NCBI GenBank assembly: GCA_023262335.1
Contig: JALRBE010000002.1
Span: 296 to 45,100 of the forward strand
Source of the DNA: Candidatus Saccharimonadia bacterium
GTDB taxonomy: Bacteria; Patescibacteriota; Saccharimonadia; Saccharimonadales; Saccharimonadaceae
DNA: 44,805 nt
Direction of reading: 5' to 3'
Shown here: positions 3,482 to 29,456 of the stretch, piece by piece
Layout of the letters: every line of letters begins with the position of its first letter
Position numbering within the stretch: the first letter of the stretch is position 1
Program-made: the position numbers and the translations under genes
The notes under the pieces: model-generated
Told to the model about the DNA's origin: nothing
What the model saw: only the letters and a program-made list of their open reading frames with translations
The model's database searches: none

Positions 3482-4270
3482 ATGTCATCCACCAAGAAAC
3501 TCATCGTCGGCAACTGGAAGATGAATCTGACCGTTCACGAGGCCAGTATCCTCGTGCATGACCTTGAAAAAGCTATTGCCGTCCACCGCGACGTCGAGGT
3601 TGTCGTGGCGCCGACGCTGCTTGCGTTGCAGTCCGTCAGCTTGCAAATCGACCGGCGCGTCTTGAAGCTCGCGGCACAGAACTTTTACTGGCAAGACCAC
3701 GGCGCGTACACGGGCGAGGTGTCGGCAACGCAACTTCGCGGCCTGGTCGACTATGCCATCGTTGGCCATAGCGAACGGCGGCACGTATTCCATGAACATG
3801 CCAAAGATCTGCGCAACAAAGTGCAAGCGGCGCTGCGCAACGGTATCAGCCCGATATTGTGCATCGGCGAAACGGCGCACGAGCAGGCGCTTGGCGAAAC
3901 GCTGGATGTCATTCATGACCAACTGCTCGGCGGGCTCGCGAACGTGACAAGCGAAGAAATCAAACGGGTGGTCGTTGCCTACGAGCCCGTATGGGCGCTG
4001 AGCAACGGCAAGGACTTCGGCAAGCACAAGGTTCCGACTCCTTATGACGTCGAAAAGGCGGCAAGGGCGGTTCGCAGCCAAATAAAACACTTGTACGGCG
4101 AAGAGGCGAGCAGGCAGATCCGAGTCCTGTACGGCGGCAGTACGAGTCCTGACAACGCGAAAGGCTTTTTGGCAGTGCCAGGAGTCGACGGCCTGCTTGT
4201 AGGGGGCGCCAGTTTGTCGGCGCACACGTTCGTGCCTATCGTCGCTGCCGCTCATTCGGAGCGCGCCTGA
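3482..4270 (+). CDS. tpiA: Triosephosphate isomerase
   Basis: 262 aa, full length. Interconverts dihydroxyacetone phosphate and glyceraldehyde-3-phosphate. Catalytic residues are visible: Lys13 in GNWKMN, His96 in VGHSERR, Glu168 in AYEPVWA, followed by the flexible phosphate-gripping loop region, then the phosphate-binding YGGS and GLLVGGASL segments. Its TGA stop overlaps the ATG of the next gene (TGATG at 4268-4272), indicating translational coupling with the tail-anchored protein. Confidence 0.97.
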   Translation: MSSTKKLIVGNWKMNLTVHEASILVHDLEKAIAVHRDVEVVVAPTLLALQSVSLQIDRRVLKLAAQNFYWQDHGAYTGEVSATQLRGLVDYAIVGHSERRHVFHEHAKDLRNKVQAALRNGISPILCIGETAHEQALGETLDVIHDQLLGGLANVTSEEIKRVVVAYEPVWALSNGKDFGKHKVPTPYDVEKAARAVRSQIKHLYGEEASRQIRVLYGGSTSPDNAKGFLAVPGVDGLLVGGASLSAHTFVPIVAAAHSERA

Positions 4271-5322
4271 TGGCCGGCGAGATAGATTTTGACGAACTGG
4301 ACAAAGCGGTCGCTTCGCTTATGGGGGGCGCGACTCCTCAGCGGCAAGACGAAGGACCGAAACAGAAAACATTGACTATTTCCAGCACGCTCAAGCCTGG
4401 CGAAGACCCGGCGTACGCCAAACTGGACGAAGTCGCCAAAGCGATCGGCGACGAAATCCTGACGACAGACGGCGAAAGGACGGTCGACGTCGACGAGGCG
4501 GCATCGTCGCAAGCGCCAAGCGAGCCTGTCGCGGTACGGACCGAGTCGCCGGCGGTAGCGTCGCAGCCGATTGTTCCTCCGGCGCCGCAAGCTCCCGCGC
4601 CAACGGCACCCGCGGCACCAGCTGCCGTCCAGGCGCCCCGTCCGACGACGGGACGGTTCATGGACGTCGTGCATCCGTCATCGGTCATGAAGAGTCCTGC
4701 CGCGCTTGACGCCACGCCGCCTATCCGCGCGAATACCGGAGCCCAGCCGGTATCTGCGGCAAGTCCTGAAGCAAACGTGCCGCTGACACCGTTCATTCCT
4801 GACGCCAAAGTCGAAAAACGGCCGCTTGGCGGGTCGGGTGCCATCCCGTCGCCTTTCGAGGACGACAAGCCGGTGGCAGCCGTGACCACGGAGTCGCAGC
4901 CCGCCGAGACGGCAGCGGAACCTGTCGTGCAGGAAACCGTGACGATCAACTCGGAGCCTGCGGAAGGTGCGAAGCCGATTGACGCCCAGCCGGTACTTGA
5001 CGCGAGTACGTTCGAAAATACGACGCCCGCCGAATCCCCTGAGATAGCGGCGATCGAATCGACCGAAGTGTCCGCGGACGCGCCGAAAACCGAGGACAAC
5101 ATAGCCGCGGTTGAATCGGGCGATACGGAAATCTTGAAAACCACTCCGGCCCCGCCGAACAAAGAGGGGACGATTTATGACGTTTCGAACCAGGCACAGC
5201 CGCTCGCGCACGCGAAAAAGCAGAAGTCGGGTTGGGGAACGGTCGTTGTCATCGTGGTCGTGATCGCGGTGGCCGCAGCGCTGGCCGTCGCCGCTTCCTT
5301 CATTCTCGGCGTCGGCGTCTGA
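4270..5322 (+). CDS. Pro/Ala-rich protein with C-terminal membrane anchor, unknown function
   Basis: 350 aa with no domain I recognise. The first 70 residues are acidic and probably folded or helical (starting MAGEIDFDELDKAVASLMGG); residues roughly 75-320 are low-complexity, rich in Pro, Ala, Glu, Thr and Ser; the last about 30 residues form one strongly hydrophobic helix (GWGTVVVIVVVIAVAAALAV and onward) after a basic KKQK stretch. There is no N-terminal signal, so the topology suggests a cytoplasmic protein anchored by its tail. The start is coupled to the tpiA stop. The link to glycolysis genes may be only positional. Function unknown. Confidence 0.8.
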   Translation: MAGEIDFDELDKAVASLMGGATPQRQDEGPKQKTLTISSTLKPGEDPAYAKLDEVAKAIGDEILTTDGERTVDVDEAASSQAPSEPVAVRTESPAVASQPIVPPAPQAPAPTAPAAPAAVQAPRPTTGRFMDVVHPSSVMKSPAALDATPPIRANTGAQPVSAASPEANVPLTPFIPDAKVEKRPLGGSGAIPSPFEDDKPVAAVTTESQPAETAAEPVVQETVTINSEPAEGAKPIDAQPVLDASTFENTTPAESPEIAAIESTEVSADAPKTEDNIAAVESGDTEILKTTPAPPNKEGTIYDVSNQAQPLAHAKKQKSGWGTVVVIVVVIAVAAALAVAASFILGVGV

Positions 5323-5341: not shown

Positions 5342-7459
5342 ATGAATAGTCTTGAGGGCCTTAATGACGCGCAGCTTGCCGCGGTACAACAAACGAGCGG
5401 TCCGCTTTTGATTCTTGCGGGCGCGGGGAGCGGAAAAACCAAGACGGTCGCGCACAGGATAGCGTACCTCGTGCAGCATGAGGGCGTTTGGCCCACGGAA
5501 ATCCTCGCCGTGACGTTCACGAACAAAGCCGCGCGCGAGCTTCGTGAGCGCGTATGGAAACTGACTGACGATCGCGGCGACGAGGTGCCGCGCTCCTACA
5601 TGCCATGGATGGGAACGTTCCATGGCATTTGCGTGCGCATGTTACGGCAAGATGGTCACGTGATAGCGATCGCGCCGAACTACGTGATCTACGACGAGGA
5701 TGATCGGCAGGGTTTGGTCAAGCAAGCCATGAAAGAACTGTCGATCGATAGCCAGCAAATAAAGCCGCGGGCGATCAGTAGCGTCATAAGCAACGCCAAG
5801 AACGAACTGAAGACCCCCGCGGATTTTGAGGCGTCTGCCACGTATCCGCAACAGCAGGCCATCGCGAAGGTCTACGCGCGCTACGAGTCGCTGCGCAAAA
5901 AAGCGGGCGCCCTTGATTTTGACGACCTGCTTATCGAAACCGTTCGGCTGCTACGCGATCATCCGGAAGTCCGGGAGCGGTGGCGCCAGCACTTCAAGCA
6001 CGTGTTCATCGACGAGTACCAAGACACGAACGCGGCTCAATACGCCATCGTCAAATATTTAGTGAACGATGAGCAGAACGTCTGCGTGGTCGGTGACGAC
6101 TGGCAGTCCATTTACAGTTGGCGCGGCGCTGATTTCACGAACATCCTGAACTTCGAGCGCGACTACCCGAACGCGACCATAATCAAACTCGAGCAGAACT
6201 ACCGGTCGACGAACGCGATCCTGACCGTCGCGCAATCAGTCATCAGCAAGAACAAGGTACGTACGGACAAAAAGCTGTGGACCGACCTTGGCGAAGGCAG
6301 CCCGGTCGAGGTGCATCAGGCGTATGACGAGGCCGAGGAGGCGAGCTTGGTGGCTGGCCGAGTCGGTACTCACGTCAGCATAGGGGCGAGGTCATACAGC
6401 GACTTTGCCGTGCTGTACCGCATGAACGCGCAGTCCGCGCCGCTCGAACGCGCGTTCAGGTTGGCGCGCATTCCCTACCAGCTTGTCGGTGGCGTCAGGT
6501 TCTACGACCGCAAGGAAATCCGCGATATCATTGCGTACCTGCGACTTATTTATCAGCCGAACGATCGGTTAAGCTTCAGTCGTATTGCTAACGTCCCGAC
6601 CAGAGGCATCGGCGCGACCAGCTTGGAGCGGTTTTTGCAGTGGCAGGGCGAACAAGGGAGCGACATTCTGACCGCGCTCGAGACCGTGCACGAAGCGAAC
6701 GTGCTGACGCCGAAGGCGAAGAAGGCGCTTGGCGGATTGGGCGTACACCTGCGAGAACTGAAAACCATGCTGGACGAACACAGCGCGCCGGCGGACATCA
6801 TTGAGCGGCTGCTGCAAGTAACCGCGTACCGCCAATTTTTGCGCGACGGCACGCCGCAGGCGGAAGAGCGCGAAGAAAACGTTGGCCAGCTGCTCTCGGA
6901 CGTGAAAATATTCGCCGATTTGCCAGAGTTCCTCGAAGAAACGGCACTTATCGCGAGCAGCGACACCGCGGCAGGCGACGAGAAGGTCACGTTGATGACC
7001 CTGCATGCGGCCAAGGGCCTGGAATTTCCGGTGGTATTCATGGTCGGCATGGAAGAAGGCGTGTTCCCTCACGGCAGGGTGTACGAGTCGGGGCCGGCCG
7101 AACTCGAAGAGGAGCGGCGACTGTGCTATGTGGGCATGACGCGCGCCAGGCAGGAGCTTCACCTTACGTATGCCCGTTCACGCTTGCAATTCGGCCAAAG
7201 GGCGTACAACCAAGTGTCACGGTTCATCGGCGACATGGGCAACCAGATCGCCATGGTCGACGAACCGTCGTACGTCCCGGATTACGATGACAGATTCGTG
7301 AGCGACGAGTTGCCGTTCGGCGTCGGCGACAGGGTCCGTTCGGCCGCGTTCGGCACCGGAGAAATCCTTGACGTCGACGGGTTGGCGGTCACGATCAGGT
7401 TCGACAAGGGCACGACGCGCAAGTTGAACGCGGAGTACGCGCGTCTCGAGAAATTATGA
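5342..7459 (+). CDS. pcrA: UvrD/PcrA-type superfamily 1 DNA helicase
   Basis: 705 aa. ATP-dependent 3'-5' helicase of DNA repair and replication-conflict resolution. Motifs in order: Walker A AGAGSGKT (26-33), TFTNKAARELRERV (Ia), IDEYQDTN (II), GDDWQSIYSWRGAD (III), QNYRST (IV), TLMTLHAAKGLEFPVVF (V) and RRLCYVGMTRARQELHL (VI). The C-terminus (VGDRVRSAAFGTGEILDVDG and onward) is the Tudor-like tail found in PcrA/UvrD, which in other bacteria contacts RNA polymerase. The TGA stop overlaps the next ATG (ATGA), so the NUDIX gene is in the same operon. Confidence 0.95.
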   Translation: MNSLEGLNDAQLAAVQQTSGPLLILAGAGSGKTKTVAHRIAYLVQHEGVWPTEILAVTFTNKAARELRERVWKLTDDRGDEVPRSYMPWMGTFHGICVRMLRQDGHVIAIAPNYVIYDEDDRQGLVKQAMKELSIDSQQIKPRAISSVISNAKNELKTPADFEASATYPQQQAIAKVYARYESLRKKAGALDFDDLLIETVRLLRDHPEVRERWRQHFKHVFIDEYQDTNAAQYAIVKYLVNDEQNVCVVGDDWQSIYSWRGADFTNILNFERDYPNATIIKLEQNYRSTNAILTVAQSVISKNKVRTDKKLWTDLGEGSPVEVHQAYDEAEEASLVAGRVGTHVSIGARSYSDFAVLYRMNAQSAPLERAFRLARIPYQLVGGVRFYDRKEIRDIIAYLRLIYQPNDRLSFSRIANVPTRGIGATSLERFLQWQGEQGSDILTALETVHEANVLTPKAKKALGGLGVHLRELKTMLDEHSAPADIIERLLQVTAYRQFLRDGTPQAEEREENVGQLLSDVKIFADLPEFLEETALIASSDTAAGDEKVTLMTLHAAKGLEFPVVFMVGMEEGVFPHGRVYESGPAELEEERRLCYVGMTRARQELHLTYARSRLQFGQRAYNQVSRFIGDMGNQIAMVDEPSYVPDYDDRFVSDELPFGVGDRVRSAAFGTGEILDVDGLAVTIRFDKGTTRKLNAEYARLEKL

Positions 7460-7932: not shown

Positions 7933-7944
7933 CTGCCCGAGCGG

Positions 7945-7974
7945 TTTGCAGCGGGCGGCCACATTCGGTACAAT
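7945..7974 (+). promoter_or_regulatory. Promoter of the Rpf-like gene (TTTGCA ... TACAAT)
   Basis: TACAAT at 7969-7974, with TTTGCA 18 nt upstream. Transcription would start near 7981, so the ATG at 7978 is too early and the ATG at 8002 is favoured. The sequence GCGGTTTGC at 7941-7949 recurs at 9152-9160, 20 nt before the TACAAT of the paralogous gene, suggesting that the promoter was duplicated together with the gene. Confidence 0.55.
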
Positions 7975-8001
7975 CATATGAGGCCACAAGGCTTGTTATC
8001 A

Positions 8002-9150
8002 ATGAGCATTCTTGAACACGTACGACAATCCAGAGGGTACCAGCTGCTTGCTATGGCGGCATTCTTTACGCTGACCCTTTTTGTACTTATCGCGTCCGCC
8101 GGAGCGTCGAACGACGACCAGGCCAAGGGCGGCAGGCTCGTCACGTTCCATGACCGAGGGCAAGAGAAGGTCATCCTGACGCATGCGCGTACCGTCCGTG
8201 ACGCGCTTGGTGACGCCGGCATACGCGTCGCTCCGAAGGATCAAGTCGAACCAGGAATCGACGAAGAACTGATCGCGGCCGATTGTACCGTCAACGTTTA
8301 CAGGGCCCGCCCGGTGATCGTGGTTGACGGATCGGTACGCCAAAAGATCATGACCGCGGCGCAGACCGCCCGAAGCATGGCTGCCGATGCCGGGTTGCAG
8401 CTGCAAGACGAGGACACGACGAAGATAGCGCGTACCGATGACGTGCTTGCCGACGGGGCGAGTACCATGCTGACTATCGACCGCGCGACGCCGTTCACGT
8501 TGAACCTGTACGGCACGCAGGCGCCAGCATACAGTCAGGCGGCAACGGTCGGCGACATGCTCCGCGCGAAGAATATCGCTCTTGGGCCGGACGACAGCGT
8601 GTCGGTTGACGAATCGTCGCCCTTGGTGCGTGGCATGACCGTCGCGGTATGGCGCAACGGGATCCAAACTGCGACGGTGGAAGAAAAGATCCCGTTCGCA
8701 GTAAGGCAAATCCAGGACGCTGACCAAGCGGCAGGATACAAGAAGGTCCAGACGCCGGGGACTGATGGCCGCAAAAACGTCACGTACGAAATCGTCATGC
8801 GTAACGGCAAGGAGGTCTCGCGCAAAACGATCCAGAGTGTGACGCTTGAGCAGCCGAAGGAGCAAGTAGAGGTCGTCGGCGCCAAGCCATCGTTCAGCGG
8901 TGATTTCGCGGCGGCTCTGGCAAAACTCCGGGCCTGTGAATCCGGTGGCAACTACGCCAACAAGAAGAATCCGAAGTACAGGGGCGCGTACCAGTTCGGC
9001 TACGGCACGTGGGCCAACAAGTATGGCATATACGATCCGGCCGATGCGACGCCGGCGCAGCAGGACCAAGCGGCGCGCGAGTTGTACGTTCGGCGCGGTT
9101 GGCAGCCATGGCCGCATTGCGGTGCCAATCTCCCTGACAGCTATCGGTAG
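8002..9150 (+). CDS. Resuscitation-promoting-factor-like wall hydrolase (DUF348-G5-Rpf)
   Basis: 382 aa from this start (390 if the ATG at 7978 is used). A hydrophobic segment at residues 14-35 is a signal peptide or N-terminal anchor. DUF348-type repeats occupy roughly 45-210 (for example RLVTFHDRGQEKVILTHART), a G5 domain about 224-293, and an Rpf transglycosylase-like domain 301-382. The catalytic Glu is Glu313 in RACESGGNY, followed by GAYQFGYGTWANKYG and a C-terminal WQPWPHCG. Actinobacterial RpfB has the same order and cleaves peptidoglycan. Downstream lie a paralog and rsmA, as in the rpfB-rsmA pair of Actinobacteria. Whether it acts on its own wall or that of a host cannot be told from sequence. 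Confidence 0.9.
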   Translation: MSILEHVRQSRGYQLLAMAAFFTLTLFVLIASAGASNDDQAKGGRLVTFHDRGQEKVILTHARTVRDALGDAGIRVAPKDQVEPGIDEELIAADCTVNVYRARPVIVVDGSVRQKIMTAAQTARSMAADAGLQLQDEDTTKIARTDDVLADGASTMLTIDRATPFTLNLYGTQAPAYSQAATVGDMLRAKNIALGPDDSVSVDESSPLVRGMTVAVWRNGIQTATVEEKIPFAVRQIQDADQAAGYKKVQTPGTDGRKNVTYEIVMRNGKEVSRKTIQSVTLEQPKEQVEVVGAKPSFSGDFAAALAKLRACESGGNYANKKNPKYRGAYQFGYGTWANKYGIYDPADATPAQQDQAARELYVRRGWQPWPHCGANLPDSYR

Positions 9151-9180
9151 CGCGGTTTGCCGCCTCCAGTCATGCTTTGC

Positions 9181-9186
9181 TACAAT
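9181..9186 (+). promoter_or_regulatory. -10 box (TACAAT) of the second G5-domain gene
   Basis: TACAAT 28 nt before the ATG at 9215, with GCGGTTTGC 20 nt upstream as at the paralog. The leader carries GTGAGGACG as a ribosome binding site. Confidence 0.5.
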
Positions 9187-9214
9187 GAAACGAGTCCCGT
9201 GAGGACGCTCACAC

Positions 9215-10426
9215 ATGCAGAATTCATTCATTCAACTCTTTTCATGGCGACGCGCGCTTCTTTGCCTTGCCGGACTGCTCGCGGCCCTGGGGTTGTTCGT
9301 CGCCACCGCGCGAGCTGCCTCGGCTGATTCGACAGAGGCAGGGAAACTGGTGACCGTGTATGACCGCGGCGAAAAGCGCGTGGTTCTGACCCAGGCCGCT
9401 ACCGTAAAGAACGCGCTGGCGTCGGCAGGGATTGCCGTCTCCGCGAACGATGCCGTCGAGCCGCGCAGGGAAACCGAACTGACGGCGGCAAATTACGTCA
9501 TTAACGTTTACAGGGCTCGGCCGGTTACCGTCGTTGATGGTGCCATCCGCCAAAAGGTGATGACATCCGCGCAGTCGGCGAAAGAAATCGTCGCGGCGGC
9601 AGGCAGCGAACTGCGTGAAGAGGACGACGCCGTCATGACGGCCAGCCGCGACATCACGGCAGACGGCATGGGCGTGGTGCTGACGATAGACCGCGCGACG
9701 CCGTTCAAGCTGACGCTGTACGGCAAACCGATCGTCGCCTATACGCAGGAGGCGACAGTGGCTGACATGTTGCGGGCGAAGGGCGTGAAGCTTGCACCGA
9801 ACGATAGCGTTTCCGTGCCAATGGACGCTTCCATCGCAGAAAACATGGCCATAGAGGTATGGCGCGAGGGCGTACAGACGGCGACGGTCGAAGAAGACGT
9901 GGCGTTTCCTGTCCGTATCGTTCAGGATGCCGACCGTCCGGTCGGATACGCCGCCGTAAAGACCCCAGGTATCAAAGGCAAGAAGGACGTCGTGTACGAG
10001 ATTACCGCCAAAGGTGGCAAAGAGGTAGCGCGCAGCGCCATCCAAAGCGTCGTTACCAAGCACCCCGTCGAAGAAGTGCGAATAATCGGCACGAAGCCAG
10101 GACCAAAAAGCTTGACCAAGTCGAAGGGCGCGCAGTATTTCGTTGACAGCAAAGGCGTGTCGCACCGTGAAACCTACTACGACTTGCCAATGAACGTCGT
10201 GATTGGCGCATGCGGCGGCGGCGGGTACACTGTGCGGGTCGACGGCGCGAAAGTAGACAAAGACGGCTACATACTGGTGGCGGCGAACTACGGCAATTAT
10301 CCGAAGTGCTCCGTGGTAGAAACCAGCATGGGGCTCGGCAAAGTGTATGACACTGGTGGGTTTGCCGCCAAGCATCCGCACGGGTTCGACTTGGCGACCG
10401 ACTGGACGAAAGGCGACGGTCGGTAA
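9215..10426 (+). CDS. G5/3D-domain cell-wall protein (YabE-like), paralog of the preceding gene
   Basis: 403 aa. N-terminal signal/anchor (residues 12-35), DUF348-type repeats (about 45-215, closely parallel to the preceding gene, e.g. NVYRARPVTVVDGAIRQKVM), a G5 domain (about 230-300), then a C-terminal 3D-type double-psi beta-barrel region. The latter has Cys pairs and the segment GKVYDTGGFAAKHPHGFDLA with the Asp residues that name the 3D family, related to lytic transglycosylases such as MltA. The two genes share everything except the catalytic module, so they arose by tandem duplication and module exchange. The stop is 2 nt before the rsmA ATG, so the two form one operon. Confidence 0.88.
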   Translation: MQNSFIQLFSWRRALLCLAGLLAALGLFVATARAASADSTEAGKLVTVYDRGEKRVVLTQAATVKNALASAGIAVSANDAVEPRRETELTAANYVINVYRARPVTVVDGAIRQKVMTSAQSAKEIVAAAGSELREEDDAVMTASRDITADGMGVVLTIDRATPFKLTLYGKPIVAYTQEATVADMLRAKGVKLAPNDSVSVPMDASIAENMAIEVWREGVQTATVEEDVAFPVRIVQDADRPVGYAAVKTPGIKGKKDVVYEITAKGGKEVARSAIQSVVTKHPVEEVRIIGTKPGPKSLTKSKGAQYFVDSKGVSHRETYYDLPMNVVIGACGGGGYTVRVDGAKVDKDGYILVAANYGNYPKCSVVETSMGLGKVYDTGGFAAKHPHGFDLATDWTKGDGR

Positions 10427-10428
10427 TA

Positions 10429-11190
10429 ATGGTGGCGCCGAACAAATCGCTGGGGCAACATTGGCTACGGGACCGGTTCGTTTTGGAACACATCGCGGAT
10501 TGCGCGGATATCGACGCGAGCGACACCGTGCTCGAGATCGGACCTGGGCTCGGGACGCTGACATCCGAATTGTTGCGACGGTCCGAGCGGGTCATCGCGG
10601 TAGAGTTCGATGCCGAGCTCGCGAAAAAACTGCCAGGGCAGTTCCCGGGCAAGGCGCTCGAAGTCAAGAACGAAGACATCTTGCTGTTCGATCTCGACTC
10701 GCTGCCCGCTGGTTACAAAGTGGTCGCGAACGTCCCCTATTACATTACGAGCAAAATAGTCCAAAAACTTATGACAGCCGCGAACAAACCGTCGGCAGCG
10801 GTACTGCTGGTGCAAAAAGAGGTTGCCGAACGGATCGCGGCGGAACCGGGCGACATGAGCATTCTTGCCATAAGCGCGCAGGTATACGCCGAGGCATCGC
10901 TCGGCGACGTGGTGCCGGCCGAACTGTTCACGCCGCCGCCAAAAGTCGACAGCCAAGTGGTCATCCTTAAAACCCGCGAAGCCCCGCTCGTCGCTCCCGA
11001 AGACGAAAAGGCGTTCTTCCGAGTGGTCAAGGCAGGATTCTCGGCCAAACGCAAAAAACTCCGCTCGTCATTGGCGGGCGGTTTGGGCATCTCGAAGCAG
11101 GAAGCCGAAACGATGCTGGCGAAAGCCGCTATTTCGCCCGACGCGCGCGCCGAAGACCTGGCGATCGCCGACTGGTTGCGACTCGTTTAG
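10429..11190 (+). CDS. rsmA: 16S rRNA dimethyladenosine transferase
   Basis: 253 aa. Dimethylates two adjacent adenines near the 3' end of 16S rRNA during small-subunit maturation. Motifs: KSLGQHWLRD at the N-terminus, VLEIGPGLGTLT (SAM binding), AVEFDAEL, NEDIL, and the catalytic NVPYYITSKI around residue 103. The C-terminal domain contains FTPPPKVDSQVV. In operon with the 3D-domain gene. Its TAG stop overlaps by 3 nt the stop of the convergent gene on the minus strand (11187-11189). Confidence 0.96.
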   Translation: MVAPNKSLGQHWLRDRFVLEHIADCADIDASDTVLEIGPGLGTLTSELLRRSERVIAVEFDAELAKKLPGQFPGKALEVKNEDILLFDLDSLPAGYKVVANVPYYITSKIVQKLMTAANKPSAAVLLVQKEVAERIAAEPGDMSILAISAQVYAEASLGDVVPAELFTPPPKVDSQVVILKTREAPLVAPEDEKAFFRVVKAGFSAKRKKLRSSLAGGLGISKQEAETMLAKAAISPDARAEDLAIADWLRLV

Positions 11191-11846
11191 GCAGGCTGAT
11201 GGCAGTCGCACGGCGCGGCAGCGGCTTGTGACAAAACGGTAAACAACGCGATACGGTCGTGCTCGTCCGCGAGCGTGAGGGGAGCGGACTGCAATTCTAC
11301 CGTCGTGATGTTCATGGCCATTTCCGCGGCCTCGACCGGGTCCATGGAAGGGTCGAGCCGTTGCGCCGCGATCGCTCCCATGCGGAGGTCTTCTTCGTCG
11401 GCAGGGTAGGCGGTCTCCGTGTACCCGACTGTCTCTTCCCTGATGATAACCGCGCGACCTTCGGCCGTTCGGAATATTTGGTAATAAACCTGGCCATTCA
11501 TGACGGAGCCGACTTCGTAAAGCAGGGTGTTCTCAAACAGTTCCTGGGGTAGCTGCGACACGTCTTTGTCGCTATAGGCGTCACGGTCGAGCACGAAAAG
11601 GTCGCTGCCGTCTTTCGGCGAAAAATCCTCGGTGACGGAGCAGGACTGCCCCTCTAAGGCGACCTGGCAGTGGCGAACGCCTCCGTCGTACAGCAGTTCG
11701 TCGTGCCAGTTATGGGGGCCGGAGGGCTTGTTCGCGAAGAAGGCGTGCATGCCGCCAAACAGCGCTGCCGACTCATTGGTATCCGGCAACAACTCGGCAA
11801 GGGATTGCCGAGGGAAGTTGCCGAATTGTTCGTGAGTAGCACTCAT
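11187..11846 (-). CDS. Hypothetical protein, 219 aa
   Basis: No domain recognised. The protein is acidic and apparently cytoplasmic: no signal peptide or membrane helix. It contains a short alternating hydrophobic region (around ENTLLYEVGSVMNGQVYYQI) and EGRAVIIREE, suggestive of a beta-rich fold, and ends with CDCHQPA, a closely spaced Cys-x-Cys-His. The start is strongly supported by TATAAT 6 nt before the ATG on the minus strand. Separate from the NUDIX gene upstream (37-nt gap with this promoter) and tail-to-tail overlapping with rsmA. Confidence 0.75.
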   Translation of the reverse strand: MSATHEQFGNFPRQSLAELLPDTNESAALFGGMHAFFANKPSGPHNWHDELLYDGGVRHCQVALEGQSCSVTEDFSPKDGSDLFVLDRDAYSDKDVSQLPQELFENTLLYEVGSVMNGQVYYQIFRTAEGRAVIIREETVGYTETAYPADEEDLRMGAIAAQRLDPSMDPVEAAEMAMNITTVELQSAPLTLADEHDRIALFTVLSQAAAAPCDCHQPA

Positions 11847-12510: not shown

Positions 12511-14040
12511 ATGGGAAAGAATCTCTATGTCACAACCGCTATTCCGTACGTCAACGGCGCGCCGCACATCGGCCACGCACTGGATTATTTGCTTGCGGAC
12601 GTTTGGGCGCGGTACCAAAAGCAAAACGGCAAAACCGTGAGGTTCCAGGTGGGCACCGACGAGCATGGCAACAAAATCGCCGCCAAAGCAGCCGAAGCGA
12701 ACATGGCACCGAAGCAGTATACCGACCAAATGGCGACCGTGTTCGAGAGTTTCATCAAGAAGGTCGGCGCTGAGTATACTGATTTCGTTCGGACGACCGA
12801 CCCGCACCACGAAGCGGCGGTACAGTGGATTTGGCAAAAATTGCAGCCGTACATTTACAAGGGCTCCTACGAAGGCTGGTACTGCACCGGGCACGAGGCG
12901 TTTTTTACTGACAAAGAGGTCGAAGCGACGGGTGGCGTTTGCCCGGACCATCAGAAGCCATACGAACGTATCAGTGAAGAGAACTACTACCTCAAGGCGA
13001 GCGCGTTTACCGACCAAGTCCGCGAGGCGATCGAAAAGAACAAGATGCGCATCGTTCCCGAGTTCCGCAAGAAGGAATTCCTGGAGCTCATGAAGGACGG
13101 CCTGAAGGACGTCAGTATCAGCCGGCCGCGCAAGACCTTGACATGGGGCGTGCCCGTGCCGGGCGATCCGGAGCAGGTCATGTACGTTTGGCTTGATGCG
13201 TTGGCGAACTACATAACCGTGCTTGGATACCCCGACAAAGAAGGGTGGCAAGAGTATTGGCCGGCCGACGTGCAAGTGATCGGCAAGGACATTTTGCGTT
13301 TTCACGCGGGTATTTGGCCTCCGATGCTGCTTGGTCTGGGCATATCGTTGCCCAAAACGCTCTTGACGCATGGCCACGTGAACGTCGGCGGCGCTAAGAT
13401 GAGCAAATCCGTCGGTAACGTCGTGGACCCGAACGGGATCATGGACACCTACGGCGTCGACGCGTTCCGTTACTTCTTTGCCAGGCACATACCGACGCAG
13501 GATGACGGCGATTTTACCTGGGAGAAGTTCGAGACGTCGTACAACACGGAGCTTGGCAACGATCTTGGCAACGTGGTGCAACGCGTCGCGAGCATGCTCG
13601 TCCGCTACCAGGCAGGCGTCATAGGTGAGGCGCCTCAGTCGGAGCACGACATGCGCCCGTACCGCGAGGCAATGGAGAATCTGCAGTTCAACGTGGCGCT
13701 CGACCAAGTTTGGCTGATGGTCCGGAGCTTGAACCAATACATCGACACGGTAAAGCCGTGGGAAATCGCGAAAACCAAGGACACCGACCAAGATGCCGCG
13801 GAACATTTGGCGGAAGTGCTTGCGACCAGCGTTGGCAATTTGTTGCAAATCGCCGACTTGCTCGTGCCATTCATGCCGAGTACCGCTAAAATCATTCACG
13901 ATACGTTCGGCACGGGTGTCGTTACCGCCGTGCCTGCCGTCATGTTCCCGAAGCTCTACGTCCATACGCCCGACCCGCGAGGCGGTTCGCAGCCAGCCGC
14001 TCCTACGGTAGCGAATGAACAACCTGCTGATCATGCGTGA
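12511..14040 (+). CDS. metG: Methionyl-tRNA synthetase
   Basis: 509 aa. Class I synthetase that charges tRNA-Met. The HIGH motif appears as APHIGHALDY (residues 13-22) and the KMSKS loop as GGAKMSKSVGN (around 296-306). The protein ends shortly after the anticodon-binding helical domain with a disordered tail (PDPRGGSQPAAPT), so the C-terminal dimerisation/tRNA-binding domain of longer MetRS is absent. Its end overlaps the start of tatD, which is in the same operon. Confidence 0.97.
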   Translation: MGKNLYVTTAIPYVNGAPHIGHALDYLLADVWARYQKQNGKTVRFQVGTDEHGNKIAAKAAEANMAPKQYTDQMATVFESFIKKVGAEYTDFVRTTDPHHEAAVQWIWQKLQPYIYKGSYEGWYCTGHEAFFTDKEVEATGGVCPDHQKPYERISEENYYLKASAFTDQVREAIEKNKMRIVPEFRKKEFLELMKDGLKDVSISRPRKTLTWGVPVPGDPEQVMYVWLDALANYITVLGYPDKEGWQEYWPADVQVIGKDILRFHAGIWPPMLLGLGISLPKTLLTHGHVNVGGAKMSKSVGNVVDPNGIMDTYGVDAFRYFFARHIPTQDDGDFTWEKFETSYNTELGNDLGNVVQRVASMLVRYQAGVIGEAPQSEHDMRPYREAMENLQFNVALDQVWLMVRSLNQYIDTVKPWEIAKTKDTDQDAAEHLAEVLATSVGNLLQIADLLVPFMPSTAKIIHDTFGTGVVTAVPAVMFPKLYVHTPDPRGGSQPAAPTVANEQPADHA

Positions 14041-14806
14041 CGTGCCACCGGCACTGATCGACACGCATTGCCACGTGCATGAGGCGGAGTATCCGCTTGA
14101 CAGCGTGGAAACCATGCGACGTGCCGAGGCTGCTGGCGTGTCGACCGTTTTGTGCGTGGGGACGAGCGAACGGAGTTCGGAGGAAGCGATTGCATTTGCC
14201 GAGGAACATGACGCGGCATTTGCCGTGGTGGGCGTTCATCCTCACGATACCAAGGATGGGTACGGCGCGATTGTCGGACTCGCCCGGAAAAAAAGCCCGA
14301 AGCTTGTCGCGATCGGAGAAATCGGGCTGGATTACTACTATGGCCACAGCCCTCGGGACGTTCAGATACGAGCGCTCGAGTCGCAGATCCAAACGGCGCT
14401 TGATAACGACTTGCCGATCGTGTTCCATGTTCGGGAGGCCTTCGAAGATTTTTGGCCGGTGTTCGACAATTTTCATGGAATAAGAGGTGAGTTGCACAGT
14501 TTTACTGATACGCAGGTGAACCTCGACAAAGGCTTTGAGCGCGGATTGTACGTCGGGGTGAACGGAATCAGCACGTTTACGAAGGACCCGGCACAGCAGC
14601 AATTGTTCGCGAACATTCCTCTGGACCGTTTGCTGCTCGAAACCGACGCCCCCTTCTTGACGCCAACCCCTTATCGTGGTACTATAAATGAGCCAGCATA
14701 TGTTAGTGAGGTAGCACGACATCATGCATCGCTTCGGGGTATATCACTGCAAACGGTCGCACAAGCGACCACCGACAACGCGACGTCTTTGTTTCGCTTG
14801 AAATAA
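14033..14806 (+). CDS. tatD: TatD-family metal-dependent deoxyribonuclease
   Basis: 257 aa from this start. Metal ligands are visible: DTHCHVHE (HxH) at the N-terminus, GEIGLDYYY (Glu), a His in FHVREA, a His in LHSFT, and an Asp in LLETDAPFL. TatD enzymes are 3'-5' exonucleases/AP-type DNases on single-stranded DNA. I chose ATG 14033 (MRDVPPALIDTHCH) because TatD proteins start very near the HxH motif and this overlaps the metG stop by 8 nt; ATG 14015 would add six residues. metG-tatD adjacency is widespread; in many Gram-positives it continues into rpf/yabE and rsmA, which here lie 1.3 kb upstream. Confidence 0.92.
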   Translation: MRDVPPALIDTHCHVHEAEYPLDSVETMRRAEAAGVSTVLCVGTSERSSEEAIAFAEEHDAAFAVVGVHPHDTKDGYGAIVGLARKKSPKLVAIGEIGLDYYYGHSPRDVQIRALESQIQTALDNDLPIVFHVREAFEDFWPVFDNFHGIRGELHSFTDTQVNLDKGFERGLYVGVNGISTFTKDPAQQQLFANIPLDRLLLETDAPFLTPTPYRGTINEPAYVSEVARHHASLRGISLQTVAQATTDNATSLFRLK

Positions 14807-20439: not shown

Positions 20440-20445
20440 TATAAT
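20440..20445 (+). promoter_or_regulatory. -10 box (TATAAT), leaderless promoter of pyruvyl transferase gene
   Basis: TATAAT ends 7 nt before GTG 20453. The ATG at 20444 is inside the promoter box and cannot be in the transcript. Confidence 0.6.
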
Positions 20446-20452
20446 GGAAAGG

Positions 20453-21601
20453 GTGGAGAAGATACGCCCCCTCAAAATCGTTCACTTTCATCATAACGAC
20501 AAGAACAACCTGAACATTGGCGACCAGGCGCATGTGCTGGCGATACAAGAGGCTTTGACGCCCCGTTCAAAACGCCCCGTTCAATTCATCGAAAAATCAA
20601 TCCAGTTGCTGGGCCGCCAAGTCATTCCGAACAAGTTTTATTATCCGAAATCAAAATATTATCCAACGGTTTTTCATAACGTCTACCGCATGTTGATTGG
20701 TGACGGTTTTTACAAAGTGCTTCAAGAATGCAACGATGCCGATTTGGTGATTATTGGCGGCGGCGGCGTTTATATGGGATACTTGTTCCCGTTGAACAAT
20801 TCGTTCATCCGAAAAATTACCACCCCTATAAGTATCGTCGGCGTCGGCTACAATCACAATCTTGGTTCGCCTGATTTCTCAGAACGTCAGCTGGAAAGCG
20901 TCAGGACGATTTCGTCACAAGCGACGCTGCAGTCCGTGCGTGATTCACGGACCGTCGATTTTTTGAAAGAGCAAGGCATAGAGGCGGAACTGATGTGCGA
21001 TCCAGCGATCTTTTTAAGCGAGCGCGACACGGGCCTGGTCACGCGACGAGAGGGTACCGTAAACGTGGGTGTGAACATTGCCAGGCACGGCTGGAATAAC
21101 CAGGACAAACTGAAGGACGCGCTCGTTGACGCCTACTACGAGGCGATCAGGCGCATAGGGTCCGCGCAAAAAGCACGGTTTTATTATATGATGCACCAGC
21201 CGAACGAGCGGTATTACGTCGATGCCCTGCGACAACGAGGGGTCGAATTCGCGGGCGTCATCAACGTGTCTGACGCCCGTGAATTGAAGGGTGCATATGC
21301 GAACTTGGATTTTACCATTTCGATGATGTTGCATTCGACCATTTTGGCGTTCGGGGCGGGCGTGCCGTCAATCAACGTCGGCTACGACGACAAGAACATC
21401 GCTTTCATGCGGATGACCGGCCAGGCGCACCGCTACGTCGGGGTCGATGCGTTGTCGTCGCGAAAGCTTAATAAAATCATAGACGATACTTTGGCGAGAT
21501 TGCCGGCAGAAAAGAAAAACCTTGAAAAATACAAAATGGAGTTTTCGGGCAGATTCGATGATTATATGCAACGGACGCTTGCGCTGGTTACCGATCGATG
21601 A
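20453..21601 (+). CDS. Polysaccharide pyruvyl transferase family protein
   Basis: 382 aa with GTG start. N-terminal HHNDKNNLNIGDQAHVLAI contains the family's GD(Q/E) motif; ADLVIIGGGGVYMGYL is the glycine-rich block; QSVRDSRTVDFLKEQGIE and CDPAIFL are the central block; SMMLHSTILAFGAGVPSINV with its His is the conserved C-terminal block. Family members (CsaB, WcaK and others) add pyruvate ketals to surface glycans or cell-wall polymers. It converges on the large glycan operon and overlaps its last gene by 14 nt, consistent with a role in glycan modification, though the substrate is unproven. Confidence 0.87.
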   Translation: MEKIRPLKIVHFHHNDKNNLNIGDQAHVLAIQEALTPRSKRPVQFIEKSIQLLGRQVIPNKFYYPKSKYYPTVFHNVYRMLIGDGFYKVLQECNDADLVIIGGGGVYMGYLFPLNNSFIRKITTPISIVGVGYNHNLGSPDFSERQLESVRTISSQATLQSVRDSRTVDFLKEQGIEAELMCDPAIFLSERDTGLVTRREGTVNVGVNIARHGWNNQDKLKDALVDAYYEAIRRIGSAQKARFYYMMHQPNERYYVDALRQRGVEFAGVINVSDARELKGAYANLDFTISMMLHSTILAFGAGVPSINVGYDDKNIAFMRMTGQAHRYVGVDALSSRKLNKIIDDTLARLPAEKKNLEKYKMEFSGRFDDYMQRTLALVTDR

Positions 21602-22763
21602 TCGTTTTGAAGTAATCTTCGTGCATCCGCGCGTACTGTTCAAGCGTGAATTCACGGGCCGTTTTCGCGGCATTCACGCCGAGCTCCGCAAGCTTTTTGG
21701 GATCGTTCAATAGCGATACGATTTTTTTCGCGTATCCTTCGGGGTTGCCCATCGGGATGAAATAGCCGTTCTGGCCGTCGCGTAACCAGTCGCCGATTCC
21801 GCCGATGTCGGGCGCGAGCACGGGTGTTCCGGTACTCATGGCTTCGACGCCGACTTTGCCAAAGGTTTCGGCGGGGCTGGATGCCATGAGGAACAAATCG
21901 ATGGTCGCGTAGAACGTTTTTATGGCATCGCGGGACAAGTGACCTGCAAACGTCACGACTCCCTCCAGTCCGAGTCTGGCGACCTGGTCAACCAAAGTGG
22001 CCTTGTAGCTGCCTTCGCCTGCAATCACGAACCGGATATCGGGATCGTGTTTTACGGCGATGGCAACAGCATCGATCATGTAGTCGACGCCCTTGTGTTT
22101 TTCCAGTCGTCCGGCAAAACCAAGCGTTTTTGATGGCGCTGTCTTTTTCGGCTTGACCGGCAGCGGAGAAACTCCCTCTGGAATGTAAATGCTGTCAATG
22201 CCTTCGCGCCGCATCATCGCCTGCGTGTAGTGGCTGTACGAGATAACATGAGGTATTTTTTTGATTCTTCGCATGTAGAGCGGTCGGATGAGATACCGAA
22301 AATAAACGAAGTGCAGTCTGCCGATAGCAGAAAGATCGTTCAGGTCGTAGGGTCGTGATTTGTAATCGGCCAGGGTCAGGCCCCATGGGAGAAGCCATTT
22401 CGTATAGCCCTCCGGACCGTGCACGCAGACGACCAAACGGTAGCCTTTGAGCGCGTACAGCACGGAAGCGCTTGGCTGGTGAAGCGTATGGAGCGTGACG
22501 ATATCGGGTTGGAACGACCGGGCAACTTTTTTGGCTAGCTTGTACGCATCCATGTTAAACGTCGTTCGCAGCAGCTTGCTGAGGCCGCTATCGGGTAGCT
22601 GCTTGAATTCGTGGTCGCTATAATGCGGCAAATCAGGCCGTGCATCGCTGGATATCGTTAGCACCTCGTGACCGCGTGATCGCAATATGTCGTTCGTTAT
22701 GACCAAAGCGTTTTCAACTCCGCCTTGCTCGTACCCTGAACTCACGATTCTTAGTATTTTCAT
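21588..22763 (-). CDS. GT4-family glycosyltransferase
   Basis: 391 aa from ATG 22763 (MKILRIVSSGYEQGGVENAL); the open frame extends further upstream only as a shadow of the flippase gene. GT-B fold: N-terminal GGVENA donor-side loop, TLGFAGRLEKHKGVDYMIDA at the start of the second domain, and the E-x7-E motif in ETFGKVGVEAMSTGTP. Retaining enzyme using a nucleotide sugar. Overlaps the flippase stop (ATGA), the last gene of the operon, and converges with the pyruvyl transferase gene. Confidence 0.92.
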   Translation of the reverse strand: MKILRIVSSGYEQGGVENALVITNDILRSRGHEVLTISSDARPDLPHYSDHEFKQLPDSGLSKLLRTTFNMDAYKLAKKVARSFQPDIVTLHTLHQPSASVLYALKGYRLVVCVHGPEGYTKWLLPWGLTLADYKSRPYDLNDLSAIGRLHFVYFRYLIRPLYMRRIKKIPHVISYSHYTQAMMRREGIDSIYIPEGVSPLPVKPKKTAPSKTLGFAGRLEKHKGVDYMIDAVAIAVKHDPDIRFVIAGEGSYKATLVDQVARLGLEGVVTFAGHLSRDAIKTFYATIDLFLMASSPAETFGKVGVEAMSTGTPVLAPDIGGIGDWLRDGQNGYFIPMGNPEGYAKKIVSLLNDPKKLAELGVNAAKTAREFTLEQYARMHEDYFKTIIDR

Positions 22764-24043
22764 GATGCCTGCCTTTCTTTTCGTGCTACGTGGCTCCTGT
22801 GTATGACGACCATGATGCCGCCGGCAAACACGGCGAGGAAGCTTCCGATGAGCCAGCCCCAGCCTACGCCCAGTAGTCCGTACGGCTTGGCAAGCAGCCA
22901 GCATAAAACAATGACGCCAATGGCGTTAACGATAGGGGCGACCAAAAGGAAGAAGAGGTTTTTCGTCAATTTGAAGTATGCACCGATCGCGGCGTACAGC
23001 GATACGGCAATGCCGCTGACGCTAAGAAGGCATACGAGAAGATACGAGCCGTCACGGTACCCGGGCCCGAACGCGCTCAGCACGAACGGTGCGACGATGA
23101 TGATCGCGAAGATTGCCGGTATCGTGATTGCCATGACGATCTTGATGCCACGCTTCAAATGCAGCATCATGTTTTCTTCGTCATGAGTCGCTTCGGCCAT
23201 GATCGCTTGGACCGTCGAAAACGCGATGGTATAGAGCAGGCTGGCTATGGTGAACGCTATGTAGAAATACGCGGCAGCGCTCGGTCCGATTTCGTTGACG
23301 ACGATTAACGGCAACAGCGAATCAGGCGCGAGGTTAAGCAGACTGGCAACATATGTCGCGAATCCGTAGCGGTAGGTTTGCTTCAGTACGTTGCCTGAAA
23401 CTTTGAAAGAAGGCCTATATCCTGTCTTCGCGATGATTACCCACATGCTGAGCACGACGTTGATGACCTGCGCGATACCGACGATGATGAATATGACCAT
23501 GGGGTCGTCACCGCCAATGACGAACGGTAGTACTAACTTGGCAAGACTGAATACGATATTGATTATCAGTACGGGTCGGCTGTTATGGTTGGCAACGAGT
23601 ATCGCGGTCGTCAACGTGTTCCATGCGGTGAATATGGTGAACACGGCAAACGCCGCGATCGTCAGCGGCGATTCGGCAACGAACGCGATAGACGGCGATA
23701 TGAACGGAACGATCATGCAAAATGCCACGGATAGCAGGCCTGTGATGATCGCGTTGACTAACAGTCCTGTATTGATAAGCTCGTTTCGATTGTCGGCGCG
23801 AGCGAAGAACCGCGCGAATATCGTATCGAATCCTATCAGCCCGAACAACGATACGAACATCGACATGGACAGCAGGGTCGTCGCCAAGCCGACTGTCTCG
23901 GTATCGAACATCCGCGCGACGATGATCCAGAATACGAATCCAGCCAACGAAACCGCCGCCATGGACAGCATGAGGTAGAGGGAACTTGACAACAGGCGGT
24001 CTTGTCGCAGTGCCTTTAGTCGGTGAATGCTTTGTCGTATCAT
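22760..24043 (-). CDS. Polysaccharide flippase (Wzx/MATE-like, oligosaccharide flippase)
   Basis: 427 aa with about 12-14 hydrophobic helices spread over the whole length, in the pattern of the polysaccharide biosynthesis protein family. N-terminal helix-rich MLSMAAVSLAGFVFWIIVAR with FDTETVGLATTLLS after it is typical. It should move lipid-linked glycan units across the membrane. ATG 24043 gives an ATGA overlap with the preceding gene and is preferred to ATG 24058. Confidence 0.9.
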   Translation of the reverse strand: MIRQSIHRLKALRQDRLLSSSLYLMLSMAAVSLAGFVFWIIVARMFDTETVGLATTLLSMSMFVSLFGLIGFDTIFARFFARADNRNELINTGLLVNAIITGLLSVAFCMIVPFISPSIAFVAESPLTIAAFAVFTIFTAWNTLTTAILVANHNSRPVLIINIVFSLAKLVLPFVIGGDDPMVIFIIVGIAQVINVVLSMWVIIAKTGYRPSFKVSGNVLKQTYRYGFATYVASLLNLAPDSLLPLIVVNEIGPSAAAYFYIAFTIASLLYTIAFSTVQAIMAEATHDEENMMLHLKRGIKIVMAITIPAIFAIIIVAPFVLSAFGPGYRDGSYLLVCLLSVSGIAVSLYAAIGAYFKLTKNLFFLLVAPIVNAIGVIVLCWLLAKPYGLLGVGWGWLIGSFLAVFAGGIMVVIHRSHVARKERQAS

Positions 24044-26259
24044 TTCTGGATTACCCATGCCGTACTCGTACCGTTTGAGTATATTTGGTTTATCTCCTGT
24101 TCTGGTCGAGTCACTTTGTAATAGTAGAGGTTACTGTTTAGGTTGATCATATACGCATTTTTAGCTACATTGATGCCATCATTAAAAACGTAAAGTCCAT
24201 CAGTGTTAACCATCGGGCTTGCAATTATCAACTTTTTTTCGCAGTTATTAAGGAATCGCGAGATCGCGTATTTGTCTGCAGCAACAGAGCGTTCATTGTC
24301 GCGGTTGTCACACAGCCATTTACCTGCCTTCTTTTCTGCATCTGTAGAATAGTAAGCGTCATATTGAAATCCGTTATTATTTAAAGCTAGTTGGGGTGCC
24401 GCTCCACCAGTTATCTGCGGGATAAAACCACTCAAATGTAAGAACATAAGTGACATAAACCCGGCTGCAGCTATGTATGTTTTATGATTGTGGCGGATGA
24501 ATCTTGATAGGATCCATAAAATTGCTCCAAGAATTAAAATTGCAAGCATAGTAAGTAATTGTTGAAACATTCGTAAAAGACCGTACTCTACCGACAATTG
24601 GGGCAAGACTGTTATAAGTATGAGTAGTGCCACGCCGGATCCGCAAACAGAGAGGATGAAAAGACTGTAGCGGCTTGATGGTCTGCGTAATAAATCATAA
24701 GAAAGTACTACGAATCCTATAACTAAAAGTATTTGAAACAGCCTCGATATTCCATTTCTAATGTTTGTGTTGAGACTTTCTATAGATACTATGTCGTCAA
24801 GAGGTTTCAACGTATCTGACACCGGTAATTTCTGTTCATTGATTGCTTCGACTTTAATCCCTCCTTTTAAGTATGGCTCAGCATAACTTTGGAGTACGTT
24901 CTGAATATCAAACGATTTTCCTGATAGAATATACTGAACTTCAGATGCCTGGCTCCATTGTCCTGATACAAGACTTGTGAACGTCTTTGTAACTGTATTC
25001 CCTAAGCCGCTCGTGGTTTTGGTGATAACGCCATTCCAAAGTAGCACAAAGACACAAGCAATAATTATCAGAGGAAGGTTTAGAATGGGCAGGGTACGCA
25101 ATTGGCCCTTTCTATCTTCTTTTTTCATCATACGAATGAGAATTTTACTTAGGAGCCAAGCAATGATTAGCAAGCCTAGAGTTACGTATGTAGTTGAATA
25201 GTGGGAAAGAGTCAGGCCAAGGAATACGAAGCCTGTCAAAATGAATAGTTGTTTTCTATCCACATTTAACATCATGAGAAGAAGGAGCATTCCAAAAAAT
25301 AGAAATGCTATTTCTTGTCTGTTAAGCATCGGCATGTCATTTAGGAAAGTGGGAAATGATATAAAAAGAAAACCTGCGAGTAGGGCAAAAGTAGCTCCCC
25401 CGAAACGCTTGGCGATTGAGTAGACAGGAATTACAGATACGGCAAAAATGAGCTGAAATACTACCTTATATATGTATGGATCATAAATGCCAGTTATCTT
25501 TGCCAGAATTGTTGGAAGGATCGTAATACTAAGACAGGCGTTATACGTGTCTCTCAAGCTTCCGATATTCCAAAAGCTATTTTGCATGGTCATTTGAAAG
25601 ACATTGAATTCATGTTGAATGTCATGTCCTGTGATGCCCCACCCTCTCAGTGATATTGAGAACAAAATTGACAACGCGAACATTACAAGGGCATAGGGAT
25701 AATAATTCGAAAGATTCTTTTTTATTATTAAAATAATAAAGATAATGGCAATCGACGCGAACATGATTAAAGTCAAGATATTTGATGCGCCGTTGTTGAG
25801 TCGCATAGCACCTAAGACGCCAAGAAGAGGTAATAGACTCAAAAGTAAAATGATCAAAGCTTGTTTGCCAAAACCACCGTTCCTTTTTAGAGTAGTCGGT
25901 AGGTTGATGTCATATTTTCTTATGCCGAAACAGAGCATTGCGATAACTAGCGAAAGGCTAATAAAGATAGGAAGTGTATCGAGTGGTCGTTGTAGGCCGA
26001 TATAATAAAGTGAGTTTAATATCAGGCCTGTTAGCATTAGGATAAGAATGCTAAAGCCAAGCGAGAAGGAGAATGTCTCCCATTTTCGCCAGTGTGTTCT
26101 ATTGAAATGTAATACGAAAAGCCATCCAGGTACAAAAAGAAAGAAACCAAGAATTATAGTCCAGCTGATCATGTTCTGCAGAGGAAATGAAAGCACTGAT
26201 ACTAGCAAGCCGATCGCGACCAGTTTCCAAGCCCTAATTTTATTATCACGCAGTATCAT
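24040..26259 (-). CDS. Large polytopic membrane protein, DUF2206-like; possible glycan polymerase or GT-C enzyme
   Basis: 739 aa. About 14-18 membrane helices occupy residues 10-580, with a conserved-looking loop GWGITGHDIQHEF (around 208-220) after helix 7, resembling DUF2206 / GT-C-like proteins where acidic residues in the first large loop are catalytic. The last about 140 residues are soluble and presumably outside. Its base composition is clearly more AT-rich than the flanking glycosyltransferase genes, and its codons favour A/T-ending forms, so it was probably acquired separately. It has a strong Shine-Dalgarno (AGGAGG, 5-6 nt before ATG) within the overlapping previous gene. Function inferred from the operon only. 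Confidence 0.8.
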   Translation of the reverse strand: MILRDNKIRAWKLVAIGLLVSVLSFPLQNMISWTIILGFFLFVPGWLFVLHFNRTHWRKWETFSFSLGFSILILMLTGLILNSLYYIGLQRPLDTLPIFISLSLVIAMLCFGIRKYDINLPTTLKRNGGFGKQALIILLLSLLPLLGVLGAMRLNNGASNILTLIMFASIAIIFIILIIKKNLSNYYPYALVMFALSILFSISLRGWGITGHDIQHEFNVFQMTMQNSFWNIGSLRDTYNACLSITILPTILAKITGIYDPYIYKVVFQLIFAVSVIPVYSIAKRFGGATFALLAGFLFISFPTFLNDMPMLNRQEIAFLFFGMLLLLMMLNVDRKQLFILTGFVFLGLTLSHYSTTYVTLGLLIIAWLLSKILIRMMKKEDRKGQLRTLPILNLPLIIIACVFVLLWNGVITKTTSGLGNTVTKTFTSLVSGQWSQASEVQYILSGKSFDIQNVLQSYAEPYLKGGIKVEAINEQKLPVSDTLKPLDDIVSIESLNTNIRNGISRLFQILLVIGFVVLSYDLLRRPSSRYSLFILSVCGSGVALLILITVLPQLSVEYGLLRMFQQLLTMLAILILGAILWILSRFIRHNHKTYIAAAGFMSLMFLHLSGFIPQITGGAAPQLALNNNGFQYDAYYSTDAEKKAGKWLCDNRDNERSVAADKYAISRFLNNCEKKLIIASPMVNTDGLYVFNDGINVAKNAYMINLNSNLYYYKVTRPEQEINQIYSNGTSTAWVIQK

Positions 26260-29414: not shown

Positions 29415-29456
29415 GCGGGAGCAGGGACTTTCTGCCGTTCGGGCGGTTAGGTAGTA

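Follow-up and report, generated by a model that had tools for sequence, protein, structure and literature searches.

A tandem of RpfB-type and Sps/3D-like genes with a shared scaffold in the rpfB-ksgA region of a Saccharibacterium

The window, i.e., the whole stretch of 44,805 nucleotides analysed here, belongs to a 1.13 Mb draft genome of a Candidatus Saccharimonadia bacterium, which is based on MAG data and is 89% complete. Its locus of interest has the order uvrD, nudix, A, B, ksgA, two small genes, metG, tatD, where A and B are neighbouring genes with unlike ends on a shared scaffold, as the first-pass annotation had already described them (Table 1). The A/B pair directly precedes ksgA, which is the classical rpfB/yabE locus. 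Set against the tatD-rpfB-ksgA order, ksgA is located downstream as for RpfB, B is placed in between, and metG-tatD are found downstream as well. In nearly all related loci ksgA has been found as the downstream neighbour, and B and ksgA, which are 2 nt apart, are probably co-transcribed. Further along the window, a surface polysaccharide cluster (20444-30673) encodes a pyruvyl transferase, several glycosyltransferases, a flippase-like protein, and large membrane proteins. Long open frames at 4270-5322 (+), 11187-11846 (-), 31046-32953 (+), and 37647-39299 (+) have given no Pfam match, the second of them sitting between ksgA and metG.

Table 1. Positions of the genes, domains, residues, and promoter-like sites in the window
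Feature	Position	Strand	Remarks
UvrD/PcrA helicase	5342-7459	+	Conserved upstream neighbour in Saccharibacteria and other Patescibacteria
Promoter-like site of A	7945-7974	+	TTTGCA-18-TACAAT; includes the end of the 9-mer GCGGTTTGC (7941-7949)
Gene A	7978-9150	+	390 aa; predicted secreted RpfB-type protein, DUF348x3-G5-Rpf
Scaffold of A	8125-8889	+	Three DUF348 (ubiquitin-like) and one G5 (8668-8886)
Rpf catalytic module of A	8902-9147	+	Catalytic Glu321 (codon at 8938), motif CESGGN
Promoter-like site of B	9157-9186	+	TTGCCG-18-TACAAT; 9-mer GCGGTTTGC at 9152-9160
Gene B	9215-10426	+	403 aa; paralogue of A, DUF348x3-G5 with Sps/3D-like C-terminus
Scaffold of B	9335-10099	+	Three DUF348 and one G5 (9875-10096)
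Sps/3D-like (MltA-like barrel) module of B	10103-10423	+	Invariant residues; YuiC matches
Key residues in the module of B	10172, 10349, 10388, 10286		Thr320, Asp379, Asp392, and Asn358 (YuiC Asp129 position), respectively
ksgA/rsmA	10429-11190	+	TIGR00755, E 2.7e-70, above cut-off; 2 nt past the end of B
metG	12511-14040	+	Classical rpfB-neighbourhood member, downstream here
tatD	14015-14806	+	Classical rpfB-neighbourhood member, downstream here
YceG/MltG-like lytic transglycosylase	39641-40930		Near an FtsA-like gene (36379-37641)
LysM-CHAP protein	41255-42460		Predicted wall amidase or endopeptidase

Upstream of both genes, the first-pass annotation had proposed a duplicated promoter, based on the 9-mer GCGGTTTGC at 19-20 nt ahead of TACAAT. 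The 9-mer has indeed been found at 7941 and 9152, respectively 19 and 20 nt before the box, and the combined pattern, which had been picked after the fact, is found at these two sites and nowhere else in the 1.13 Mb assembly, vs 0 for the reversed control. Among the corresponding promoters of same-genus relatives (L005/L121, L117-L120), the 9-mer is absent and the -10-like box is conserved. Since the 9-mer is private to the window's genome and only the -10 box recurs, the duplicated promoter has been rejected as a regulatory or conserved element. Like the corresponding genes of many relatives, A and B probably each possess a separate -10 element.

The product of gene A combines DUF348 repeats (E 7.2e-23), a G5 domain (E 6e-19), and a C-terminal Rpf domain (PF06737 Transglycosylas, E 6.8e-13), the architecture by which the RpfB family is recognised, and the Rpf transglycosylase-like end assigned earlier to one of the two genes has been confirmed. 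Translation more likely begins at the ATG at 8002, because of the -10 box at 7969-7974. A phmmer comparison with the M. tuberculosis RpfB structure (5e27) has resulted in an E-value of 3.6e-24, and the segment CESGGN...WPHC aligns with the RpfC and RpfB structures, so that the catalytic Glu and the conserved cysteines of the Rpf fold are present. This Glu and the Cys preceding it have been kept in 49/49 scaffold-type Rpf domains. The Rpf domain of A is of this diverged kind, with 37-39% identity to M. tuberculosis RpfB/RpfC (38-39% for the scaffold type). Many Saccharibacteria also possess separate short Rpf proteins of about 190-290 aa (L087-L116), whose identity to M. tuberculosis RpfB/RpfC amounts to 48-70% (mean 60%) and which have possibly been acquired from actinobacterial hosts. 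In the window's genome no such short protein has been found.

Gene B carries the same scaffold, with Pfam matches for DUF348 (E 1.5e-19) and G5 (E 1.8e-15) that place it within the DUF348-G5 definition of the YabE/SpsB family, and its AlphaFold model has a mean pLDDT of 90. A protein comparison has identified the two scaffolds as homologous, with 52% identity over 268 aa (BLASTP, E 1e-97). Domain by domain, the identity is 52, 52, 53, and 54%, and after G5 it drops to the background level of 25%. The shared parts had been described as signal, DUF348, and G5. For the latter two this holds, whereas the signal segments, present in both genes, are dissimilar in sequence (28% identity). At identical residues, 48% of the codons are the same, compared to 40% expected from codon usage, i.e., silent sites are near saturation, so that there has been no recent gene conversion.

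The nature of the second catalytic end has been less easily assigned. For the last 107 residues of B no Pfam model matches, PF06725 ("3D") included, and neither B nor any of 29 relatives reaches the PF06725 cut-off, nor does any protein of the window's genome. A profile of the 29 relatives has matched the lytic transglycosylase YuiC (E 0.0011), and the AlphaFold model of the isolated domain (pLDDT 89, pTM 0.82) has retrieved YuiC chains as the top four PDB matches in Foldseek, with probabilities of 0.96-0.99, modest E-values of 0.01-0.05, and no competing fold. With the NCBIfam model SpsC, 16/29 members of the family have given matches, the best at E 3e-4, but the copy in the window has not. 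Single-sequence hhalign comparisons with two Saccharibacterial 3D proteins have been weak (probability 0.3 and 8%) and were dropped as support. By profile and fold comparison, the C-terminus of B belongs with the Sps/3D enzyme YuiC. The 3D double-psi barrel named in the first-pass annotation is thus borne out in its fold, and lacks the Pfam 3D match and the first aspartate.

In YuiC, Asp162 is catalytic and is oriented by Thr91, Asp129 and Asp151 complete the "3D", and the first Asp of YuiC and MltA is not the catalytic one (PMC4499186). Among 82 homologues of B's module, the Thr of the motif ETYYD, which we infer to be the equivalent of Thr91, and the second and third Asp, corresponding to D151 and the catalytic D162, are invariant (82/82). 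The first-Asp position is occupied by N in 56, by H in 13, and by D in 10 homologues, so that B, with Asn like most of its relatives, departs from the three-aspartate rule of 3D/Sps proteins. We have termed the module Sps/3D-like and placed it outside strict 3D membership. As one of three aspartates is missing and a Pfam 3D match is absent, catalysis by B is not certain, and one may suppose that the module is no longer an enzyme and now binds glycan or acts as a regulator, assisting A or a partner hydrolase. The Asn in 56/82 members would suit such a role, as would the related B. subtilis proteins YabE, YocH, and YdjM, which support the activity of the NlpC/P60 enzyme LytE (PMC10653849). We regard this loss of activity as quite unlikely, given that neither the catalytic nor the second Asp varies, nor the Thr assigned to orientation, and that the position affected is non-catalytic in YuiC and MltA. 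In addition, the Saccharibacterial protein L177 exceeds the Pfam 3D cut-off and also carries Asn at the first position (AVNP), and the Asp to Asn change is therefore tolerated in bona fide 3D domains.

How the two modules are distributed has been surveyed in 393 genomes of the class. The Rpf domain occurs in 126/393 and is spread through the class, the Sps-like module in 96/393, all of them in the window's family f1, and both together in 20/393. A tandem of an Rpf-type gene followed by an Sps-like gene has been read in ten of the 393 genomes (G000, i.e., the window, G651/L121, G200/L123, G427/L182, G461/L185, G530/L135, G433/L129, G474/L134, G642/L145, and G409/L184) and is immediately followed by ksgA in nine of them, and after about 2 kb in G433. 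The G461 tandem (L185:2809-3907, same contig as L008) has a frameshift inside the Rpf domain next to an intact Sps-like copy; either decay or an assembly error may account for it, and intact relatives exist. Other arrangements comprise a single Rpf gene ahead of ksgA, as in L117-L120, which are four species of the same genus, and in many others, an SLT-type gene followed by an Sps-like gene in three further genomes (L190-L192), the order Rpf gene, ksgA, Sps-like gene in L140, and an Sps-like gene alone between uvrD and ksgA in L197. In many genomes the Sps-like gene is the only one of the two before ksgA, and an Sps-like gene before ksgA is also found in the large genus g3 and in MAGs derived from the gut.

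Across Patescibacteria, five modules have been observed on the DUF348-G5 scaffold, namely Rpf, Sps-like, SLT (PF01464, in relatives), a phage tail lysozyme end before ksgA (PF18013, E 1.7e-24, L171:5202-6476), and an RlpA-like double-psi barrel (DPBB_1) in L081, L083, and L084 from other Patescibacteria. The window's genome encodes a third paralogue on contig C17 (L004:3755-4633), in which DUF348x2 is joined directly to the Sps-like module without G5. Short distal DUF348 plus Sps-like copies of this kind are widespread in the window's family (e.g., L047, L052, L055). The module also occurs without any scaffold (L073:5629-6336, L072:4155-4979), in one case in an Erysipelotrichaceae MAG, which suggests a possible source or recipient of it. 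The canonical 3D domain has been rejected as module source, as PF06725 is found in 5/393 class genomes and the scaffold model is blank at those loci.

The history of the scaffolds has been followed with a maximum-likelihood tree of 68 rows and a second tree with more taxa, firmicute YabE being left out. In both, the A and B scaffolds of the window's genus form one clade with a support of 100/99. Within this clade, the first tree joins the Sps-like scaffolds of the window, L005, L006, and L010 with 97/96. The L010 contig is labelled Chloroflexi, and its scaffold gene is nested in the window's genus; it has probably been mis-binned and is of Saccharibacterial origin. The Sps-like copies of several genera are grouped with the Rpf- or SLT-type copy of the same genome, a pattern that recurs in genus g7, L145/L184, L069/L020, L140/L022, and the SLT clade, and the Sps-like scaffolds of g7 form their own clade (100/97). 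AU tests have rejected both a single origin of all Sps-like scaffolds (p 1e-157) and a joining of those of the window's genus with g7 (p 0.0009). As A and B share one genus clade, we conclude on duplication and module exchange and not on two unrelated imports, which, together with the break of identity after G5, upholds the tandem duplication with exchange of the catalytic module that had been proposed initially. Rpf or SLT is to be considered the older module, because Rpf is class-wide and the Sps-like module is confined to one family.

One may ask if the same trees could result from an ancient Rpf/Sps-like pair, inherited vertically, the scaffolds of which have been homogenised repeatedly by gene conversion within each lineage while the catalytic ends were kept apart. 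Tandem copies are prone to conversion, homogenisation would yield the clustering of A and B by genus that is seen in several clades, and conservation is far higher in the module, with 57-89% identity among Saccharibacteria, than in the scaffold. However, the separate clades of Sps-like scaffolds in the window's genus and in g7, the codon use near the chance level, which indicates no ongoing conversion, and the absence of the Sps-like module outside one family, which ill suits an ancient class-wide pair, speak against such a history, and we consider it unlikely. According to the duplication and exchange that we prefer, the Rpf module of A would be ancestral and retained, the scaffold gene would have been duplicated beside A within this lineage to give B, and the end of B after G5 would have been replaced by the Sps/3D-like module. 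A possible donor would be a distal paralogue of the C17 kind; the tree of the module alone, at 107 columns, resolves too little to single it out. Related genera have apparently proceeded to the loss of the Rpf copy, and the tandem would represent an intermediate of "non-orthologous domain displacement". More broadly, the rpfB locus of Saccharibacteria may be a recurrent site of module exchange, at which several genera have independently captured an Sps-like module on an Rpf or SLT scaffold via tandem duplication, possibly followed by loss of the older copy. With the SLT, tail-lysozyme, and RlpA modules of other Patescibacteria, the scaffold would serve as a generic carrier of peptidoglycan-cleaving domains. 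This wider proposal could, in our judgement, turn out either way.

With respect to function, the first-pass annotation had suggested two complementary peptidoglycan-cutting activities. Two modules on one scaffold are present, but the activities would not be complementary in kind, since Rpf and MltA/3D modules are both expected, from their family assignment, to be lytic transglycosylases for the same MurNAc-GlcNAc bond. For this cleavage, which would be non-hydrolytic, the Rpf module is expected to use Glu321, and the Sps-like module Asp392 with Thr320 as the orienting residue. The pair may hence provide two folds for one chemistry, perhaps with different preferences for the glycan end or site. 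The window's genome has genes for two penicillin-binding proteins of class A besides those for the MltG-like, FtsA-like, and LysM-CHAP proteins, and therefore the cell makes and divides its own wall. A search of the accessible literature for Rpf in Saccharibacteria or Patescibacteria has found nothing relevant, "RpfB" in PMC7567580 being an unrelated Xanthomonas DSF protein, and wall hydrolases are not discussed in a Tn-seq paper on a Saccharibacterium.

A more far-reaching suggestion is that the pair acts on an actinobacterial host, with the Rpf copy waking dormant cells or feeding from them and B helping to breach the host wall. A and B are exported by prediction, as judged from their signal-like N-termini, cultivated Saccharibacteria are described as living on Actinobacteria in PMC10633639, and the classical Rpf factors are actinobacterial (PMC1084345). 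Nevertheless, the pair occupies a housekeeping locus that is common to Patescibacteria with SLT, tail-lysozyme, or RlpA modules on the scaffold, the short separate Rpf proteins of other Saccharibacteria are better candidates than the scaffold type for a host-directed role, and the window's genome makes a wall of its own; action on the host is thus very unlikely in our view. The diverged scaffold-type Rpf, the housekeeping locus, and the two class A penicillin-binding proteins make the cell's own wall the simpler substrate, and own-wall remodelling is a likelier role than host waking. A and B would mainly loosen this wall as the cell grows, and ksgA would keep them in step with ribosome maturation. 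By analogy with mycobacterial RpfB, which works with RipA (PMC10653849), a partner endopeptidase may perhaps take part. Taken as a whole, we think it rather likely that A and B are two exported lytic transglycosylases that share a wall-binding scaffold and have arisen at the rpfB-ksgA locus by duplication and module swap.

In Actinobacteria and Firmicutes, rpfB and yabE, respectively, have the scaffold and the tatD-ksgA neighbourhood in common and differ in their catalytic end (Ravagnani et al., 2005, PMC1084345). This replacement has been named non-orthologous domain displacement, and RpfB/YabE has become the standard example of a domain displaced by an unrelated one with equal function. The argument for equal function was based partly on the observation that Rpf and Sps never occurred together on this scaffold in one organism, among the genomes then known (PMC1084345); here they are neighbours in one genome. 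The related loci, leading from Rpf-only via the tandem to Sps-like-only, make it possible to test how the displacement proceeds (duplicate, swap, lose), and if the recurrent exchange is true, its whole path is visible in living lineages. Moreover, the known module repertoire of the scaffold is widened, and the findings suggest that obligate epibionts, whose wall biology has been little studied, possess a diverged branch of Sps/3D lytic transglycosylases that escapes Pfam.

The tandem can be read as a variant of the RpfB/YabE kind and as a natural intermediate of domain displacement. It shares with the case of Ravagnani et al. (PMC1084345) the scaffold, the locus, and the two module classes, and differs in that Rpf and Sps-like modules reside in adjacent genes and that intermediate and end states are found within one family. 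The counterpart of A is actinobacterial RpfB (M. tuberculosis Rv1009), with DUF348x3-G5-Rpf, the catalytic Glu, the Cys pair, and ksgA downstream, whereas A belongs to a Patescibacterium, its Rpf domain is 37% identical, tatD and metG are located downstream instead of upstream, and a second scaffold gene separates A from ksgA. In its plan, B corresponds to B. subtilis YabE (SpsB family), with a DUF348-G5 scaffold, an Sps/3D-type end, and a place next to ksgA; unlike YabE, its module stays under every Pfam 3D threshold and is without the first aspartate, no rnmV separates B from ksgA, and its scaffold groups with the adjacent Rpf gene, YabE being outside the tree. The module itself resembles B. 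subtilis YuiC (SpsC) and E. coli MltA in its fold and in the Asp pair D151/D162 of YuiC, whereas YuiC is scaffold-free, forms a domain-swapped dimer, and has D129 at the position of Asn in B.
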